Shown: positions 2,993 through 18,947 of the stretch, one piece after another
How the letters are laid out: each line of letters begins with the position of its first letter
Position numbering within the stretch: the first letter of the stretch is position 1
IMG/VR virus record: IMGVR_UViG_3300028827_000101
Location: 1-27,147 of that record
Direction: 5' to 3' (one strand)
DNA length: 27,147 bases
Origin: a virus
Notes under the pieces: generated by a model
Databases searched by the model: none
What the model saw: the letters and a program-made list of their open reading frames with translations, nothing else
Told to the model about the DNA's origin: nothing
Program-made: the position numbers and the translations under genes

Positions 2993-3271
2993 CTATGTCG
3001 TAGTAGTTGTGGTTGTAGTAGTTGTGGTTGTTGTCGTTAACTCCCGGTAGCCAGGTGGGATCGACTTCGGTTCCCACTTACCACTTGTTGAATTATACTT
3101 CAATATGTCTCCATCAGACAATCCAGTCGTATCAACATCCAATAAAGCAGACAGCTTCAGAAGAGTGTCATTCAGCCTAGTCCAGTTGAAATTATTGGAC
3201 TCGGCATTCCAATCTGGATCTCCTGTCTCATTGTATTTCAACCCACTCGGAGATAATGTTTGAACACTCAT
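2993..3271 (-). CDS. Short adhesin-type paralog with a C-terminal 14-Thr tail
   Basis: A 92-residue protein, one of three consecutive paralogs. Residues 1-70 share the pattern L.P..L......W....N....LN..LL....L.DV....L.DG..L.....GKW with the proteins at 3283-3492 and 3505-4380. Residues 71-78 (PPGYRELT region) are a short linker, and residues 79-92 are 14 consecutive threonines followed at once by TAG. The SD GAGGAAGG upstream of the ATG at 3271 includes the previous TAG stop. Motifs like 'LSDGDIL.Y....GKW' are common in phage tail-fibre-associated proteins, so a virion-surface role is likely. The exact function is unknown. The Thr tail could be a glycosylation target or a linker that has lost its distal domain. 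Confidence 0.65.
   Translation of the reverse strand: MSVQTLSPSGLKYNETGDPDWNAESNNFNWTRLNDTLLKLSALLDVDTTGLSDGDILKYNSTSGKWEPKSIPPGYRELTTTTTTTTTTTTTT
2996..3037 (-). repeat. Poly-Thr tract, 14 codons (subfamily A)
   Basis: Fourteen ACN codons run directly into TAG. A 26-base stretch is identical to part of the tract at 11067-11105, and 23 bases are identical to the tract at 3508-3531, including third codon positions. Confidence 0.9.
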
Positions 3272-3282
3272 ATTTCCTTCCT

Positions 3283-3492
3283 CTAATCATACTTAATAGG
3301 GACCCACTTACCTTTACTAGATTTCCACATTAACAGCGCTCCATCTTCTAACTTGTCAATATCAACGTCTTGAAGTGCTTGAATCTTTAAAAGAAGAGCG
3401 TTAAGTCTCTCAACATTTCGATTATAAATAGCAACCCACTCAGGCTGCCCGTAATCACAAGTTTCAAGGTCTGTTGGTGTAAGTTTGCTCAT
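3283..3492 (-). CDS. Short adhesin-type paralog without Thr tail
   Basis: A 69-residue protein made only of the N-terminal domain shared with its two neighbours (LTPTDLE...RLNALLLKIQALQDVDIDKLEDGALLMWKSSKGKW), ending KYD with no tract. The ATG at 3492 has SD GAGG 9 bases upstream. It may be a small virion subunit or an oligomerisation domain. It defines the bare domain from which the tailed versions can be compared. Confidence 0.65.
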   Translation of the reverse strand: MSKLTPTDLETCDYGQPEWVAIYNRNVERLNALLLKIQALQDVDIDKLEDGALLMWKSSKGKWVPIKYD

Positions 3493-3504
3493 CTCTTACT
3501 GCCT

Positions 3505-4380
3505 CTATGTAGTAGTTGTGGTTGTAGTAGTCAAGATACAACCATTTATGGCTTTAACGTTAAAAAGTCTTCCTGCAGGTTGAGCTGTGTAACCAGTCGT
3601 CGCATCCGTAATCGACGCCTCGTTAGTACCATAATAATGGTAACACTGCACTCCACTGACAGCCCCATCTAATGTTCTTGGGATATCATCATATGCGGCA
3701 TCGTTGAAATAAAAACTAATCACCAGATCCTTCGATGAATCAAGGCTAAAGTCTACCCAATCTGAAGTCTGACCATCAGAAGTAACAGTTGTTCCATTGT
3801 TGCCCCCATCAAACGTAACCCTTACTTGATTTCCATCAAAATCGTAAGCATCCCCGGATGAAGCTTTGTGGCCTATAAAACAGTCAGTAAACTTCCAGTT
3901 GGTGCCAACATGTCCAAGAGACAACTGTATAGTCTCAGCATCGTAATCGAGTAGGCTAGAAGAAATCACAATTCTCAGATTGAATCCAGACCAATCCGTA
4001 CCTGATGTGCTAAAACTATAGGTGCCAAAGACTACATGGTTAGGGCATACAGTAGTAGTCGTCGTAGATGTTGTTGTAGTGGATGTAGATGTTGTTGTAG
4101 TGGTAGAACTGCTAGTAACCGTGGTTGTAGTTGTAGTGGTCGTGGTTGTTGTGGTCGTAGTTGGAACAACCGATCCATATGGTACATTTTTAAATTTCCC
4201 TAATCCTGCATCCCATACAAGCACGTCATCGTCTGAAAGCCCAGATAGATTAACATCTAGCATCCCCGAAACATACAGGAGAGTATCATTAAGGAGACGT
4301 GCATTACGTTCCATTATCTTATTCCACCCTTGGACGGAATAAGTGAGTTTCTCTAGTTGTGTGGGCGAAAGTTTAGGCAC
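3505..4380 (-). CDS. Putative receptor-binding/adhesin protein with two Thr-rich tracts
   Basis: A 291-residue protein from a GTG at 4380 (SD GGAG 7 bases upstream), overlapping the end of the SpeD-like gene. Residues 1-70 are the paralog domain shared with the next two genes. Residues 74-110 are a Thr/Ser linker: 14 Thr, then V, T, S and short Thr runs. Residues 111-283 are a separate beta-rich domain (VFGTYSFSTSGTDWSGFNLRI..., GNQVRVTFDGGNNGTT..., LVISFYFND) with four cysteines, typical of an exposed adhesin or carbohydrate-binding fold. Residues 284-291 are eight more Thr before TAG. The position after the tail-tip protein fits a receptor-binding role. The fold is inferred by eye, and no known lectin family was recognised. 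Confidence 0.6.
   Translation of the reverse strand: MPKLSPTQLEKLTYSVQGWNKIMERNARLLNDTLLYVSGMLDVNLSGLSDDDVLVWDAGLGKFKNVPYGSVVPTTTTTTTTTTTTTTVTSSSTTTTTSTSTTTTSTTTTTVCPNHVVFGTYSFSTSGTDWSGFNLRIVISSSLLDYDAETIQLSLGHVGTNWKFTDCFIGHKASSGDAYDFDGNQVRVTFDGGNNGTTVTSDGQTSDWVDFSLDSSKDLVISFYFNDAAYDDIPRTLDGAVSGVQCYHYYGTNEASITDATTGYTAQPAGRLFNVKAINGCILTTTTTTTT
3508..3531 (-). repeat. Poly-Thr tract, 8 codons, at the C-terminus (subfamily A)
   Basis: Eight ACN codons before TAG. A 23-base stretch is identical to part of the tract at 2996-3037. Confidence 0.9.
4051..4161 (-). repeat. Internal Thr/Ser linker (subfamily B core at 4120-4161)
   Basis: The tract encodes 14 Thr (4120-4161), then a degenerate Thr/Ser/Val stretch to 4051. 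Bases 4124-4158 are identical over 35 bases to 15465-15499 at the end of the major tail protein gene. Confidence 0.9.
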
Positions 4381-4786
4381 TGTCCATCTCCGGTTCTGGT
4401 TGATAGTAATCTAGTCCAGAAATACGAAAAGAAACAGGTTTAACCAATCTCTTTATCACTCTCTCAACCAAATGATGATCATAATCCAGACAACTATTCA
4501 CAATAATGTTGGCATAAGCGGGATCATATTCGATCCAATTATCATAAATTACGTAAGATTCATGAAGGTGTTGAACAGCAACACAAGCAGTTGCAGTGAA
4601 TCCTAACTCCTCTACAGGATACTTGTGAAACTCAACATCACCATGAGGAGTCATCTCAATCTCTTGGATGATTGCTCTAAGTAAGGCTGCGATAAACAAC
4701 TCATTGCCAAGTCTTTCTCGATCTCCATGGAAATGAAAGTGAACAATTTTGCCTTGACTGAATTTACCATTTAGTTTGGTATTCAT
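4373..4786 (-). CDS. S-adenosylmethionine decarboxylase-like (SpeD-fold) protein
   Basis: A 137-residue protein, the usual size of a class 1B prokaryotic SpeD proenzyme. It follows the SpeD pattern along its length: an N-terminal strand (IVHFHFHG), a helix (LFIAALLRAIIQEIEM), then VEFHKYP, ACVAVQHLHES, W.EYDPAYANI and a Cys at 99. In SpeD, autocleavage at a Glu-Ser pair makes the pyruvoyl cofactor; here E76-S77 is kept. The residue after the Ser (usually His) is Tyr, and the catalytic His five residues after the Ser (His68 in Thermotoga) is Asp82. The Cys sits two residues further along than usual. It may therefore cleave but not decarboxylate, or be a structural relative. The ATG at 4786 has a good SD (AAGGTGA). 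It sits between the tail-tip and receptor genes, with no polyamine genes nearby. Confidence 0.6.
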   Translation of the reverse strand: MNTKLNGKFSQGKIVHFHFHGDRERLGNELFIAALLRAIIQEIEMTPHGDVEFHKYPVEELGFTATACVAVQHLHESYVIYDNWIEYDPAYANIIVNSCLDYDHHLVERVIKRLVKPVSFRISGLDYYQPEPEMDSA

Positions 4787-4803: not shown

Positions 4804-7053
4804 TTAAGCATCTGGTCCAATATAAGTTCCATCACCAGACGAAACATAAACAGATTTCCAGTCGCTTACTTGGCCGTTCAAACGTGCTCTCACATACACC
4901 GTACAAGCAGATGCTTGAGTCAACGTAGTAGACGTTCCGTTCACTATTACTGAAGACCCCAAACCACTTACACTCTCATACACCTCAAAATCTCCATCAT
5001 AGAGCATTGGGTCCTGATCAGTTTGAGCATCAGCATCAGTTGTTCCTGCTCCTTTGTTGTCCTGGTTGGTTGGCCACCACTCTACAGAAAGAGATGATCC
5101 AGACCTGACAACCTTTATTCTACACACTGGCCATGGAACCTTCGCCTTACCTATACTCGTCACATGAATAGCAGTAGCATCAGAAGGATCTACCGTAACT
5201 GCTCCAAAATAAGGAAGCATTTTGACATAAAAATCTGAACTAGGAACCCCAGTCAAGATGTTCTCTGAGAGATTAAACAACCATATATCAGATCCACTAC
5301 TGTGTGATTCTACTGGGGTATTTAAAACCCCCCTTACTATCCCTTCCAATCTATATTGATTTGATCCTACTGGAGTAACTCTCTCAAATCTCACTATCTC
5401 ATTCCCGAGCAATGCAAACCTGTTCTTCCCAAACAAATCTGTCCTACTAATAGTATTAAATGTCGGATCATCTCGATAAGGAGTAAAGAGTATCCCTGTT
5501 TCATCATCTATCGAGTAGGTATCATCTGGATAAGTTTCATCTAGTGTTCCATACTGAGCCCACCCAGTAAACTTTCCATATGATTCATAATCAGTTCCTG
5601 TAGAAGAAACCATTGCTACCCAACCAGTCTCAAAACTATGAACCCTAGCAGCCAACATCAGATAAGCAGTATCATGTCCGTAAGTGGGATTATATGGTAA
5701 CTCAAAAATAGCTTGATGGACTAGAGCTGCTGGTGTGTAGTCAGGATTCGTCCACTCACTTCCTCCTGCTGTTTCATAATTATCATCAAACAGAGTCTCT
5801 GTAACTTGTATTGCCCTCCAAGAGATTCTATTCTTATCAATCTCAGAAATATCCTTATTTATAACCCTAAATTCAGCGGAGGAAATCCCATATTCACTAT
5901 TGTTTATCTCTACTATCTCTCCTACTTTAACAGACCTAAACTTCATAGTTGTTACAAATTCTATCTGAGCTCCGGGGTAACTCTGTTCTTTCATTATCTC
6001 CCACAAACGCTTTGAGGCCGCATCTACGTCCCGAAAGGCTTTCAAATCAACATTGAGAACTCGTTGTCGTCCTTGAAGTTGTATGTTTGCTCTATTCCCA
6101 ATGATCAAAACTCTTTGTGTAAAATCCTTAGACTCATCAAGATATGTACCTCTGAAAATATTATATGTTTGATCCCAAGTCTTACGAGTAAAAGTGAAAT
6201 CCAGAAAATCTTCCGTGTTAACTGTAGCAACTGCACTATCATTAGGATCAAAAGCTTTCAAGAAAAATCTACCTTCATCATCTTCACCAAACGCTCCACC
6301 AACATAAGACAAAACATGAGCTATCTGTTTTTTGGCTTTCTGACTTGAAGAGAGAATGAGATTAAGCCCATATCCCTGGTTATACCAATAATCAGCAGCA
6401 TCATTAAAGGATGATAAGTCAATATCAGACACACTTGCACCATTATCTATCAGTATCTGATAGATAATCGCTGCAGGATTATGCCCATTTGACATCACAG
6501 CATGATTGATAGGAGAAGATCCTAAATCTCTTTCCACAACAAAATGAACTGTTGGGACATAAGTTTGATTTTCTCCAAGAAACCATTTCTTCCAAAAGAT
6601 ATGTGCCACTCTAGGAATTCTGTTTGCATACGTTCCGGGTTCTGTTGGGTAAATACTCTGTGTGCCATCATTGAAGTCAGTACTTGAAGCGCTTATCGTC
6701 TGCTCTTTATCCTGGACATAGGTCTTTATTAGACTTATTTTTCCATAGCATAGTGCTTCCCACACATCCAAATAATAATTGTAGCCAACAACAGTTTCAC
6801 CCCCGCCCCCACCTTTGCCTCCAGCTTCTTCAGTAACTTCCTCAGTAATTAGATTTCCATACCATATAATGTTCCCGGGGATTCTCACTTTTCCAAACAC
6901 AATAGGAACTACAGACCCTTCATTAGCTGTAGTAATACTAAAAGAATCTAATGTAGCAGGGGCCATATCCGGTGATTCCGGTTTTGGTCGGAAAAGAAAA
7001 GCGAAAATCGCCCCAACAACTGCAGCTCCTATTGCGAATAACCCAAAACTCAT
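4804..7053 (-). CDS. Tail-tip / baseplate hub protein (GTA gp15 / gpJ type)
   Basis: A 749-residue virion protein expected to close the tail tip and carry receptor-binding parts. The hydrophobic N-terminus (LFAIGAAVVGAIFAFLF) is typical of these proteins. It is followed by the pattern ANEGSVVPIVFGKVRIPGNIIWYG found in tail-tip attachment proteins. Residues near 78-85 are a Gly-rich stretch (GGKGGGGG), also common in this family at the same place. The middle contains hub-like beta domains (NRFALLGNEIVRFERV...YRLEGIVRGV), and the C-terminal 100 residues look like a fibronectin-like or Ig-like domain. The start overlaps the NlpC/P60 gene by ATGA. It is shorter than GTA gp15 and lacks an evident TIM-barrel domain. 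The order of the preceding genes strongly supports the assignment. Confidence 0.8.
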   Translation of the reverse strand: MSFGLFAIGAAVVGAIFAFLFRPKPESPDMAPATLDSFSITTANEGSVVPIVFGKVRIPGNIIWYGNLITEEVTEEAGGKGGGGGETVVGYNYYLDVWEALCYGKISLIKTYVQDKEQTISASSTDFNDGTQSIYPTEPGTYANRIPRVAHIFWKKWFLGENQTYVPTVHFVVERDLGSSPINHAVMSNGHNPAAIIYQILIDNGASVSDIDLSSFNDAADYWYNQGYGLNLILSSSQKAKKQIAHVLSYVGGAFGEDDEGRFFLKAFDPNDSAVATVNTEDFLDFTFTRKTWDQTYNIFRGTYLDESKDFTQRVLIIGNRANIQLQGRQRVLNVDLKAFRDVDAASKRLWEIMKEQSYPGAQIEFVTTMKFRSVKVGEIVEINNSEYGISSAEFRVINKDISEIDKNRISWRAIQVTETLFDDNYETAGGSEWTNPDYTPAALVHQAIFELPYNPTYGHDTAYLMLAARVHSFETGWVAMVSSTGTDYESYGKFTGWAQYGTLDETYPDDTYSIDDETGILFTPYRDDPTFNTISRTDLFGKNRFALLGNEIVRFERVTPVGSNQYRLEGIVRGVLNTPVESHSSGSDIWLFNLSENILTGVPSSDFYVKMLPYFGAVTVDPSDATAIHVTSIGKAKVPWPVCRIKVVRSGSSLSVEWWPTNQDNKGAGTTDADAQTDQDPMLYDGDFEVYESVSGLGSSVIVNGTSTTLTQASACTVYVRARLNGQVSDWKSVYVSSGDGTYIGPDA

Positions 7054-10066: not shown

Positions 10067-11050
10067 CTATGCTATCCTAAAAGCAAATCCATATTGTCTA
10101 TCTGGAAAAGCAGTCGGAAACACAATGTATCTCTCCGATCCATACGTCAGTTCTTGACCAATCTGCAAACCAGCAAATTCAATGCAATAAAACGGATAAG
10201 TCCCAATTGGATACCATACGTTGTCACTTCTTCGCTGCCCAAACAGCGTTGGTTTTATAAGAACTCTCTTCCCAGTCCAAGCATTCTGTCTTACACAATA
10301 TGACAACTTATTAAATTCTCCAAGATAACCATCGTCAGCTCCAAATCCACAATTAGAGTCAATTCTACCTGCAGTTTTGTCCCCCTCAAACCAAAACTTA
10401 TAGTAGTACGATGAATCTCCGTCAGGGGACCAAAAACAAGCAAAATTCATATTTGTAGATCCTATGAGATTATACCAAGCATTAGAGGATGCGGAGTAAT
10501 AACAAGTACTTACTTCCCATATCCCGTCGTTCGTTGATTGATCAAATAGTTCTATCACCCCGCAAAAGAAGGTCTGAATGAAGTTCGAGGCTACCTGCAC
10601 TACACCACATATGAATTTATCATTACCGAAAAACCAGACCGCTGGCATCGTCCCAGGAGACAGACTTAATGGCTGAAAATAAGTCCCAGTAAAGAAATTT
10701 TGAGAGATTGGGTCATCTGAGTTACTATGGTCAACATTTCGATAGGATGGATCTATCCCTCTTACCCATAATTGTTCCTCTTGTGGATCTCCACTATCAT
10801 CATCTGCTCTAAACCGGACTACAACATCCTGGTTCCCATATCCGTTAGTATAGATCTGTAGATTATCATGATCATAAGTTTGACCAGACAAAAAATCGTA
10901 CTGACTACTCCCACTATCGTAAGCCCATTGTTTCGAGGTTTCATAATAATCTACAGTCCATCCTCTATCTAGTGCAAACGTTCTAAGTTTTGAGAGGACG
11001 TCCTTATGACTAGTTGGGTTGGAATACTTTACATAATTAACAAGACTCAT
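10067..11050 (-). CDS. Tail structural protein, 327 aa, related to the next upstream gene
   Basis: A 327-residue, Tyr/Trp/Phe-rich protein whose layout parallels the 422-residue protein at 11064-12332. Both have an N-terminal 'LL/KLRTF' helix, a central '.WF..N' strand segment (PAVWFFGNDKFICGVVQV), and a C-terminal domain with a Tyr-rich ending (ERYIVFPTAF). Similar proteins are annotated as virion structural proteins next to tail genes in other phages. This copy has no Thr tail. The ATG at 11050 has SD GGAGG just after the TAG stop of the previous gene. Confidence 0.6.
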   Translation of the reverse strand: MSLVNYVKYSNPTSHKDVLSKLRTFALDRGWTVDYYETSKQWAYDSGSSQYDFLSGQTYDHDNLQIYTNGYGNQDVVVRFRADDDSGDPQEEQLWVRGIDPSYRNVDHSNSDDPISQNFFTGTYFQPLSLSPGTMPAVWFFGNDKFICGVVQVASNFIQTFFCGVIELFDQSTNDGIWEVSTCYYSASSNAWYNLIGSTNMNFACFWSPDGDSSYYYKFWFEGDKTAGRIDSNCGFGADDGYLGEFNKLSYCVRQNAWTGKRVLIKPTLFGQRRSDNVWYPIGTYPFYCIEFAGLQIGQELTYGSERYIVFPTAFPDRQYGFAFRIA

Positions 11051-11063
11051 TTGAATTCCTCCA

Positions 11064-12332
11064 CTAAGTAGTGGTTGTAGTAGTTGTGGTTGTTGTAGTC
11101 GTGGTCACAGCTACTCCCTCTTCGACCGAACAGAAATCGTGATAGTCCGTTCTGAAAATATTCTGAAAAATCCTGTAACTCTTTCCATCAAAGTTAATCA
11201 CGTCTTCAGATTGAACTTGGTTACAAAACACATGATAAAGCCCATCCAGATCCATCAACGTGTCGTGCGCCCCAGACCTGTATTCCATAAGATAAATTGG
11301 GCACATCAAAACGCGATTATCCTTAGTCTTATCTACTTCCACAGACATTTGTGTCAGGTCCATTCCCGGAACTACTCTAAGTTGTGGATTAGATGCCCGC
11401 ATATCAAGATAGCTATTCGAGGGATTAATAATCCACACATTATGATAACCACCAGAGTTTGGCATGTGCCAAAACATCTCATGCCCACTACCAGTGCTAG
11501 ATTGAAGAACAGTAGCTTGATATGCACTTCCCCCAATTATCAATGGATACGGATAATCTGACGGATTCCCAAATCGCCTTCCGAATCCAAGATAACACAT
11601 TTCATAATTCGATTGGGCTTTTACAAACACTATGATTCTCTGCTGGTTCGAGTAGAACCAGTAGTACATAGTCCCATCTATAAGAGGCATCGACGGATGA
11701 TAAGTATAAGCATTGTATGTACTATCATATGTTCCTAGTCCATGATCCGAAGAGTTAAAATCCCACTCAGTCTCACCAGACTGGTAGTAAGTGTATCCAT
11801 TAAGGTTCCATGAGTAATAACCATCTGCTGCGTACTTAGTTTCCCTGATTCCAATAATTACTTTCTCTTGCCCACTAAGGCCTGTATTAGAGAGGATCAC
11901 TTCTTTACAGTCACTACCAAACGGCTCACTCCCTCCGACTCCTGGCTCCTTCGTGTTCTGGTTCAACTCCTCTCGCCAATCTTGCCCAGGATTTCCATAG
12001 ATATAGTCAGCTGTAGGAGTGCTATCTGGAGATGTGTCGAAAGTTATACTATAAGCACCAGTTGAGTACGTTATACTTCCAGAACTGATGTGGTCTCCTG
12101 TGATATTCCCAGAACCATCATCAGTTGCCTCATAATCGGTACCACTAATCGTATAATTAATCACCAATCTACCAAGACCCACTGGGCTATTGGCCAACGT
12201 TCCTGACCAACTCGTACCAGATCCACTTAAACTTTCTCCGGTGACCTCAGTTCCAAGTACAAAATCAAGGAGTGCTTGTAATAACCCATTCGTTCCAGAA
12301 AAAGCTGTAACGGTTCCGCTCTGAAAAGCCAT
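11064..12332 (-). CDS. Tail structural protein with C-terminal 13-Thr tail
   Basis: A 422-residue protein. Residues 1-30 are a hydrophobic helix region (LLQALLDFVLG), and residues 35-120 are a Gly/Ser/Thr-rich beta segment (YTISGTDYEATDDGSGNI). The core contains MYYWFYSNQQRIIVFVKA and YPYPLIIGGSAY, patterns I associate with phage tail structural proteins downstream of tape-measure genes. Residues 410-422 are 13 Thr, then TAG. The partner gene at 10067-11050 appears paralogous but lacks the tract. The ATG at 12332 has SD GGAGGG inside the end of the tape-measure gene. Confidence 0.65.
   Translation of the reverse strand: MAFQSGTVTAFSGTNGLLQALLDFVLGTEVTGESLSGSGTSWSGTLANSPVGLGRLVINYTISGTDYEATDDGSGNITGDHISSGSITYSTGAYSITFDTSPDSTPTADYIYGNPGQDWREELNQNTKEPGVGGSEPFGSDCKEVILSNTGLSGQEKVIIGIRETKYAADGYYSWNLNGYTYYQSGETEWDFNSSDHGLGTYDSTYNAYTYHPSMPLIDGTMYYWFYSNQQRIIVFVKAQSNYEMCYLGFGRRFGNPSDYPYPLIIGGSAYQATVLQSSTGSGHEMFWHMPNSGGYHNVWIINPSNSYLDMRASNPQLRVVPGMDLTQMSVEVDKTKDNRVLMCPIYLMEYRSGAHDTLMDLDGLYHVFCNQVQSEDVINFDGKSYRIFQNIFRTDYHDFCSVEEGVAVTTTTTTTTTTTTT
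11067..11105 (-). repeat. Poly-Thr tract, 13 codons (subfamily A)
   Basis: Thirteen ACN codons before TAG. It shares 26 identical bases with the tract at 2996-3037. Confidence 0.9.
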
Positions 12333-15460: not shown

Positions 15461-16021
15461 TTATGTTGTAGTTGTAGTGGTCGTGGTTGTTGTGGTCGTG
15501 GTTGCGTATGTTACTGTAAAGTAAGGACTATCCGCATGATTAGCTGTGTCAGCGAGTCCTTCAGCTGTGTAACTCATCTCCATCCAGTCATCACCAATAA
15601 GGGCCAATGGACCATTGGGGGCCAAAGTAACTCGGTGGAACTCCCAAGTCTGATTCGGACCCACAGGATTATCAGATACAAATTTAAGGGCATATTCTTT
15701 ATCTGTATTCTGAAGCCCCTTGACTACATTATCACTCTTCGTACCTATGACGAAACGAGCCAAGTTTGCAGCAGCTAATTCATCACAGGTGAAATCAACT
15801 GTGTATGTAGTTTCGACCACTGGACTCTTATCTTTGTTTCTCATACCAGAACGAGAGGAAAAATGGTCTTTCTTCTCCACAGAGGGATTAAGCTCAATAC
15901 TTGGGCAGTTCCCTATTTCAACAAAATCCCCCTGAGATGGAGGAGTAGTTCCATTCCACTCTGCAATGTAAAGAATACCTTTTCCTATTGCATAATTATC
16001 AGTACTGTGAGGAGTAGGCAT
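15461..16021 (-). CDS. Major tail (tube) protein with C-terminal 13-Thr tail
   Basis: A 186-residue major tail protein. The N-terminal segment (AIGKGILYIAEWNGTTPP then FVEIGNCPSIELNPSVEKK), the Ser-rich HFSSRSGMRNKDKS loop and the closing strand DDWMEMSYTAEGLAD are typical of tail-tube subunits, and the gene lies directly before the chaperone gene. Residues 174-186 are 13 Thr, then TAA. Because this subunit occurs in many copies, the tail tube could carry a repeated array of exposed Thr tails. The ATG at 16021 has a full AGGAGG SD 8 bases upstream, in line with high expression. Confidence 0.82.
   Translation of the reverse strand: MPTPHSTDNYAIGKGILYIAEWNGTTPPSQGDFVEIGNCPSIELNPSVEKKDHFSSRSGMRNKDKSPVVETTYTVDFTCDELAAANLARFVIGTKSDNVVKGLQNTDKEYALKFVSDNPVGPNQTWEFHRVTLAPNGPLALIGDDWMEMSYTAEGLADTANHADSPYFTVTYATTTTTTTTTTTTT
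15464..15502 (-). repeat. Poly-Thr tract, 13 codons (subfamily B)
   Basis: Thirteen ACN codons before TAA. Bases 15465-15499 are identical over 35 bases to 4124-4158, and 23 bases are identical to the tract at 17788-17826. Confidence 0.9.
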
Positions 16022-17784: not shown

Positions 17785-17934
17785 TTAGGTCGTTGTAGTG
17801 GTCGTGGTTGTTGTAGTCGTGGTTGTAGGCCAGGTTATCTGTTCATTAACCTTCTCTGCCCATCGACGCAAATTTGGGTGAAGACCTGGATTGGTCTCCA
17901 TCCACTTGCGTAAGCTCTCATACTTTCTAGCCAT
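17785..17934 (-). CDS. 49-residue protein with C-terminal 13-Thr tail, next to the capsid gene
   Basis: A small gene in the gap between the capsid gene and the 111-residue gene. The ATG at 17934 has an SD-like AAGGGGG 9 bases upstream and the TAA is at 17785-17787. Residues 1-36 are a basic helical segment (MARKYESLRKWMETNPGL, HPNLRRWAEKVNEQITW, P), and residues 37-49 are 13 Thr. The shared tract with the major tail and adhesin-type proteins supports it as a real, probably virion-associated protein. Tight spacing from neighbours also supports translation. The function is unknown; a minor capsid-surface component is a guess from position. Confidence 0.7.
   Translation of the reverse strand: MARKYESLRKWMETNPGLHPNLRRWAEKVNEQITWPTTTTTTTTTTTTT
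17788..17826 (-). repeat. Poly-Thr tract, 13 codons (subfamily B)
   Basis: Thirteen ACN codons before TAA. It shares 23 identical bases with the tract at 15464-15502. Confidence 0.9.
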
Positions 17935-17964: not shown

Positions 17965-17998
17965 TGGCCTCAATCCTCTAGGGATTAAGAAGTGGCCA
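17965..17998 (-). promoter_or_regulatory. Hairpin at the end of the capsid gene
   Basis: On the minus strand, TTAATCC-CTAGA-GGATTGA forms a 7-bp stem (one G-T pair) at 17988-17970. Outer TGGCC/GGCCA arms (17998-17994, 17969-17965) can extend it across a 5-base bulge. It includes the capsid stop codon. No U-run follows, so it is more likely an RNA-stability or partial attenuation element than a strong terminator. Confidence 0.4.
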
Positions 17999-18947
17999 AG
18001 TTGATGATTTTCCCGTGGTACTCTTCAGGACCGTAATCCAAACCAATCTGGCCGTAAATCTGCCCTTTCTCACTTGCTCCGGTTTTGGAAAGCTCTTCAT
18101 AGAAAAGCACACCTTTGTCCGGAACAGGCAAGAACACTGGGGAACACACACTCAGATCTGCAATCAGTAGAGTACTAGCCGGCACATGAGGCGCCCAGAC
18201 AACCCCAAGAACCGCAAAGTCAGTTTCAATCTGATTAATATTGAAACCACCGACATTACGATCTTGAGGAGCATACCCGTAGATCTCACTCAGTTTCTGT
18301 TTTTGAAAAGCATTAACAAAGATCACCGGATTCACGAACTGAGCACCATTAGTAGCCATGGTTCGGAGTAGTTGATTAACCAGATCCCTAGAAAGAGTTC
18401 CACCACTAGCATCGACAGAATTTGTGACACACGCAGTGATAATCCCTCGAGTTTTAGCCGCAACAGTCGCAGAAGTGGCTTTCTGATACACACCATTGAG
18501 AAATGTATAATCCACATTAACAGCCATCTGACGTAGATGGGCAGTAATCTGGAAATCTTTCTCATTGGTAACAGGCTGAGTCTGAGAAATATCTACCAGC
18601 CCGGTAGTAGCATCAGCCTTCACAGCGCCCATCACAGACTGTTTGGCGTAAGAGATGTTAACTTGGCTTTGGAAGATCTGAACCGTGTTAACATCCTGAT
18701 CACGCACATAAGTCCAAGGAGTAGGTGCAGTGAGAGAATCATTTTCAGAAATCTCAGGCTGACTGGCTGCCTCAAGGGACCAAGGTTGGGCCAGAGGAAA
18801 CTCAAACGCCTGAACAGTTTTTATGTTTCCGCCCTGAAGACCACCGATCATATTCAGGAACGGAGTTTGATTCGCCCCTATAAGGTAAAGTTCACCTGTA
18901 TAGTTGGGACAATTCCATATGGTTCCAGCTGCATTCACATTTGCCAT
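17985..18947 (-). CDS. Major capsid protein (HK97 fold, DUF5309-like)
   Basis: A 320-residue major capsid protein. The opening (CPNYTGELYLIGANQTPFL, MIGGLQGG) and the segment VNTVQIFQSQVNISYAKQSV resemble capsid proteins of the DUF5309/SU10-like group. The remaining features (VDYTFLNGVYQKATSATVAA, then LLRTMATNGAQFVNPVIFVN, and a closing EEYHGKIINLATS) agree. It lies directly after the scaffold gene and has a good GGAGG SD 10 bases before the ATG at 18947. There is no N-terminal protease-processed delta domain, since a separate scaffold gene is present. Confidence 0.85.
   Translation of the reverse strand: MANVNAAGTIWNCPNYTGELYLIGANQTPFLNMIGGLQGGNIKTVQAFEFPLAQPWSLEAASQPEISENDSLTAPTPWTYVRDQDVNTVQIFQSQVNISYAKQSVMGAVKADATTGLVDISQTQPVTNEKDFQITAHLRQMAVNVDYTFLNGVYQKATSATVAAKTRGIITACVTNSVDASGGTLSRDLVNQLLRTMATNGAQFVNPVIFVNAFQKQKLSEIYGYAPQDRNVGGFNINQIETDFAVLGVVWAPHVPASTLLIADLSVCSPVFLPVPDKGVLFYEELSKTGASEKGQIYGQIGLDYGPEEYHGKIINLATS

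Follow-up and report, generated by a model that had tools for sequence, protein, structure and literature searches.

The window, by which we mean the whole stretch of 27,147 bases that was analysed, is an IMG/VR phage fragment; the contig is incomplete and its main genes all lie on the minus strand. The gene order runs terminase, portal, major head protein, tail tube, tape measure, tail genes and tail hub, followed by three small genes that we call A, B and C. Gene A (3505..4380, minus strand) has a GTG start, encodes 291 amino acids and is the variable, module-carrying member of the triple. Its N-terminal domain (aa 1-73; 4162..4380), a helix and a beta-hairpin, is common to A, B and C and is the putative anchor. 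It is followed by a first tract of 14 threonines (T14; 4120..4161), by a linker of one valine and then Ser/Thr to aa 110 that leads from the tract to the module (4051..4119), by a module of 173 aa (aa 111-283; 3532..4050) and by a second tract of eight threonines (T8; 3508..3531), with TAG immediately after it; all of these are likewise on the minus strand. On the same strand, gene B (3283..3492) encodes 69 aa, a bare N-terminal domain with no tract, and gene C (2993..3271) encodes 92 aa, in which 78 residues precede exactly 14 threonines and the stop, this T14 tract occupying 2996..3037 ahead of TAG. The open reading frames bear out the three states described in the original prediction, namely a bare domain (69 aa), a domain plus tract (92 aa) and a domain-tract-module-tract protein (291 aa). 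The homology of the N-terminal domains, which had also been proposed, holds as well: with the domain of A as query, B (E 8e-11) and C (E 3e-9) of the same genome are found.

The tail hub protein (4804..7053, minus strand) lies upstream of the triple, as it does in syntenic relatives. In the window, a 137-aa protein of unknown family (4373-4786) separates it from A; a related phage, L028, has a 191-aa protein in this gap, and most other relatives have no gene there.

Thr tracts end five virion-type proteins in the window, and three of these are far from the triple, each with a C-terminal T13 and each on the minus strand. They are a 422-aa structural protein (phrog_687; 11064..12332, tract 11067-11105), the major tail protein (phrog_807; 15461..16021, tract 15464-15502) and a 49-aa protein whose gene adjoins that of the major head protein (17785..17934, tract 17788-17826). 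In the window ORF translations, the major head protein itself (17985-18947) is without a Ser/Thr tail. When up to three mismatches are permitted, the tract core ACAACAACCACRACYACTACAAC has nine matches in the window, five of them exact, compared with 0.01 expected in shuffles. Two adjacent genes, 10067-11050 and 11064-12332, both match phrog_687, and the Thr tail is present only on the 422-aa product, as it is in the relatives seen. No reverse transcriptase gene, which might have indicated a diversity-generating retroelement, is present among the ORFs of this contig fragment that were matched to PHROGs.

The A-B-C triple in related phages

Two related phages, L028 (61%) and L029 (51%), were found by a search with the tail hub, and profiles of the N-terminal domains of A and C revealed further relatives. 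The triple is present in identical order in 11 contig lineages, including the window, and wherever a contig extends that far the same tail genes are found upstream. The 33 N-terminal domains of A, B and C from the 11 contigs form a coherent alignment, and the structure model of this family has a pLDDT of 88. Compared with the PDB by Foldseek, the family model had a best match no better than E 3, and a sequence search with the domain produced no match of note. A single-sequence structure model of the 291-aa A protein reached low confidence only (mean pLDDT 36).

The tandem trio had been read as a stepwise series, in which the three paralogues represent successive states of one cassette that is gained or lost. 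The states in the window do resemble such steps, and an unloaded A exists in other phages; in four contigs (L078, L080, L082 and L083) the A protein lacks a module and measures 88-94 aa. The relatives contradict the series nonetheless. In a maximum-likelihood tree of the 33 N-terminal domains, A, B and C each form one clade (support 98/91, 98/91 and 99/94, respectively), B is a bare protein of 66-72 aa in 11 of 11 lineages, and C consists of the domain with an unloaded tract in all 11. Given three separate clades and a constant B and C, each state in the window belongs to one of three old paralogues, and we regard the stepwise series as highly improbable. Within the triple, only the cargo of A changes. 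The associated proposal, that a cassette bounded by tracts is gained and lost, survives for gene A, which has no module, one (as in the window) or, in other lineages, two or more, and in which modules are exchanged; it fails for B and C, which are fixed. The A and C proteins of L084 and L085 have Ser-rich tails and linkers where those of other phages have Thr.

Modules of gene A and their exchange

The expectation that related phages would carry differing domains between the tracts was borne out, since A carries SPRY, discoidin, LamG or novel modules, or none; the Pfam names among these modules are SPRY, Laminin_G_3 and F5/8 type C (discoidin). To judge from these domain classes, the modules would bind hosts. 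The proteins were cut at their tracts and the pieces compared for recurring tract-bounded modules. A SPRY module, the first in A of L029, recurs from tract to tract deep in the second gene of L028, with 54% identity over 188 of 188 aa. The discoidin piece of L071 is present twice, in A and in the next gene, the copies being 61% identical, and the discoidin of A in L028 matches a different tail protein in L049 with 69% amino acid and 76% nucleotide identity. In L139 the major tail protein itself (5971-7026) continues into a Ser/Thr tract and then a discoidin domain (F5/8 type C; Pfam E 1e-10).

The module of the window is more isolated. Searched separately, aa 111-283 yielded a distant homologue in L144 (E 4e-9) that sits on a different anchor protein and is flanked by Ser tracts, and no relative besides this one was found. 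The module did not match a named family above the cut-off or a protein of isolated phages, and a search of IMG/VR with all 291 aa was likewise negative. One weak match in the PDB, to the putative cell adhesion protein 4k4k (E 0.03), is a lead only. As in mosaic adhesins, then, one fragment may be found in otherwise unrelated proteins, with the pairs L028 A and L049, and window A and L144, as examples.

Two LamG domains are arranged in an unusual way. In L028 (14250-14360) a LamG-like domain is broken in frame by T12-Ser, TAG and a new ATG, and the remainder follows directly. In L071 the break is at the same point, with three modules between the parts. The short piece in both phages was read by eye as the first strand of LamG, and the two split domains may be docked by strand exchange. 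Very long many-module proteins, of up to 1,950 aa and with Thr tracts between the modules, are encoded by the unrelated contigs L023 and L036.

Ser/Thr tails on virion-type proteins

The distribution of the tails was followed in two samples. The tract sample comprises 40 contigs that were selected for having tracts. Thr7 followed by a stop is present in 20 of 21 contigs, most of which were themselves found via the tract pattern, and the reversed pattern has no matches. The tail-tube sample was collected with a profile that uses no part of the tracts as a search pattern, the ten sequences used to build it being all tailed, and this profile detected 80 viral and three genome loci. In the tail-tube clade that includes the window (support 99/97) a Ser/Thr tail is present in 55 of 55 rows. 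Four short tail-tube relatives outside this clade (L140-L142 and L167) are without tails, and relatives with an internal insert of 80-171 aa have a tail in 0 of 21 cases. Over the whole family, 56 of 61 members without the insert are tailed compared with none of the 21 that have it, and tail and insert never co-occur; one or two evolutionary events underlie this contrast, so that a small P value overstates the independence of the counts. The label Ig-like for the insert form derives from the PHROG name (phrog_807) and from record annotations, and the insert regions have no match in Pfam. An Ig-like extension was considered for the window major tail protein and rejected, because the insert is absent there and the protein ends in T13. 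The small head-region protein, like the tail tube, is tailed in many relatives. A random insertion hotspot was also considered as the origin of the tails and was rejected, since the genes that carry them remain the same.

In at least four separate places of the tail-tube clade, Ser has taken the place of Thr. Together with the Ser-rich A and C proteins of L084 and L085, these replacements indicate that it is the hydroxyl residue that is kept. The retention of this residue while the codons change suggests that the protein is what matters. The possibility that the tract is an mRNA device for the next gene was rejected, because the Ser versions change the codons and because tracts also occur inside proteins.

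Tails within one genome tend to be alike, as judged by several comparisons that are uncorrected for shared ancestry. The last residue of the tail is equal in 12 of 19 phages, compared with 5.0 expected. The Ser fraction of the tail-tube tail is correlated with that of other tails (rho 0.47, n 48, relatedness not corrected), and in L097, L123, L124 and L136 both tails are all or mostly Ser. In L136, an identical Cys-Arg interruption is present inside the Ser tails of the tail tube and of the small head-region protein. The likeness extends to the order of the codons. Between window tracts of different genes the mean longest match is 4.29 codons, compared with 3.16 +- 0.17, and the longest is 11; window tracts share no codon order with the tracts of other phages. 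For 36 phages, codon-order sharing within genomes amounts to 127.3 compared with 102.8 +- 3.7, an excess of 24% that is reached by 0 of 300 shuffles, although many single phages have no such excess. Between phages the excess is small (2.65 compared with 2.43, or 9%). These data are consistent with the notion that tails may be copied at the DNA level among the genes of one genome, a process that may keep their styles alike and may also aid the exchange of modules.

Glycosyltransferase genes are common in phages generally, and their distribution was compared between tailed and insert-form contigs. At E <= 1e-3, 13 of the 21 tailed contigs have a match to a glycosyltransferase family. Among contigs larger than 40 kb, 11 of 12 tailed and 0 of 3 insert-form contigs have one, a difference with a Fisher value of 0.009 that is not corrected for ancestry; the insert-form contigs contributed one weak match in 10. 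Downstream of the triple, L078, L079, L081 and L028 have sugar genes. No glycosyltransferase was seen in the 27-kb fragment that constitutes the window.

Possible roles of the tracts

The conservation of the hydroxyl residue and the company of glycosyltransferases in tailed phages together make it likeliest that the tracts serve as surface tails with O-glycans and, in some proteins, A among them, additionally as linkers for adhesins. We consider it probable that these are exposed Ser/Thr tails, presumably O-glycosylated, that double as linkers where adhesin cassettes load. Gene A would then be the carrier of a tail-tip adhesin. Its N-terminal domain, common to B and C, probably anchors it beside the tail hub, and everything past its first Thr tract would be exchangeable cargo that binds sugar or protein. 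The unloaded form would read domain-tract-stop and the loaded form domain-tract-module-tract-stop, and a module could be added or removed without disturbing the anchor because the tail would be an unstructured end. B and C would be fixed companions, B tailless and C tailed but unloaded. The Thr tract itself would be one example of C-terminal Ser/Thr tails that are phage-wide, on the tail tube, the small head-region protein, the structural protein and the tail tip, and these tails most probably are exposed and flexible and receive O-glycans from glycosyltransferases that the phage encodes.

Three other explanations for the tracts deserve consideration. They might be unmodified flexible linkers and tails, retained for the solubility and disorder of Thr/Ser runs. 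The tracts do lie between folded modules and at the ends of chains, and no modification was seen. On the other hand, Gly, Pro, Ala or charged residues would be equally suitable, yet Ser and Thr dominate in many lineages, and a plain linker would not account for the glycosyltransferases that accompany tailed phages; on balance we find this explanation doubtful. Alternatively, the tracts might be mainly DNA devices, in which ACN repeats seed recombination for the swapping of modules and the peptide is incidental. Several observations are in keeping with this, including the sharing of up to 11 exact codons by window tracts of different genes, with the core exact in five tracts, the presence of tandem module copies with tract borders, and the LamG modules of L028 and L071, in which a tract, a stop and a new start divide the domain at one and the same loop. 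If this were the main function, it is difficult to see why tails should be kept on the tail tube, the small head-region protein and C, which are free of modules in nearly all relatives, or why several lineages should have Ser codons where others have Thr codons. Furthermore, the homologue of the window module in L144 sits between Ser tracts, so that tract DNA is not the common homology there. A role chiefly as DNA is therefore unlikely. An artefact of assembly or sequencing at low-complexity sequence can hardly be credited: repeats can mislead assemblers and all of the contigs are metagenomic, but dozens of contigs, which come from different samples, have tails on the same genes, and in these tails the third bases are mixed and Ser sometimes stands in for Thr.

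The reading of the tracts as probable glycosylated tails and linkers has a bolder form, which we advance tentatively as a possibility of lower probability. Each phage may possess its own C-terminal tag, a run of Thr or Ser with a characteristic end, that is borne by a constant group of virion proteins without homology to one another, is kept alike by copying from gene to gene, is matched to the glycosyltransferases of that phage and offers a universal dock for the loading and unloading of adhesin cassettes.

As far as we know, glycosylated virions have been demonstrated chiefly in mycobacteriophages, in which O-linked glycans are reportedly located at the C-termini of capsid and tail-tube subunits. 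If the tails described here are glycosylated, sugar-coated virions would be widespread among uncultivated tailed phages of a broad group, and they could be searched for by a simple mark, namely several virion genes that end in a Thr/Ser run together with a glycosyltransferase. A passage of PMC11256854 that cites Freeman et al. 2023 describes glycans on the major capsid proteins of the mycobacteriophages Che8 and Rita. The present phages resemble Che8 and Rita in that Ser/Thr-rich C-terminal extensions are found on the tail tube and on small head-region proteins; as to phage-encoded glycosyltransferases, 13 of 21 contigs of relatives have them and the window fragment shows none. They differ in that the tails are nearly homopolymeric for Thr or Ser, occur on up to five virion-type proteins per phage and are alike within a phage. 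Moreover, this is an unrelated, uncultivated group in which the tails also link adhesin modules, and glycans are suggested here by sequence.

Domain shuffling in phage adhesins is already known. The receptor-binding proteins of phages are mosaics of domains, with fragments common to otherwise unrelated tail proteins and with tail fibres as a hotspot (PMC10684548); the text of that paper makes no mention of linkers or threonine. Here, in contrast, the borders of the modules coincide with Ser/Thr tracts, and the style of the tract follows the recipient phage. Ig-like domains on major tail proteins (phrog_807) and Hoc (PMC10385173) are likewise optional surface decorations of the tail tube or head, but in the present tail-tube family no protein was seen to combine the internal insert (Ig-like) with a Ser/Thr tail. 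No relevant paper emerged when the literature was searched for poly-threonine tails in phages. New features of the present group are the bounding of modules by tracts, the constancy of the companions B and C, and the uniformity of the tails throughout a phage. Since the tracts mark where an adhesin module starts and ends, metagenome sequences could be read directly for candidate host-binding modules, and the agreement in tail style among unrelated genes within a genome represents an unusual concerted evolution of a short peptide tag.

With respect to hosts, the tail hub had no matches in the bacterial genomes searched. One of the three genome loci detected by the tail-tube profile (L166), in a metagenome bin labelled Deltaproteobacteria, contains a Thr-tailed tail tube and is a possible lead to a host.
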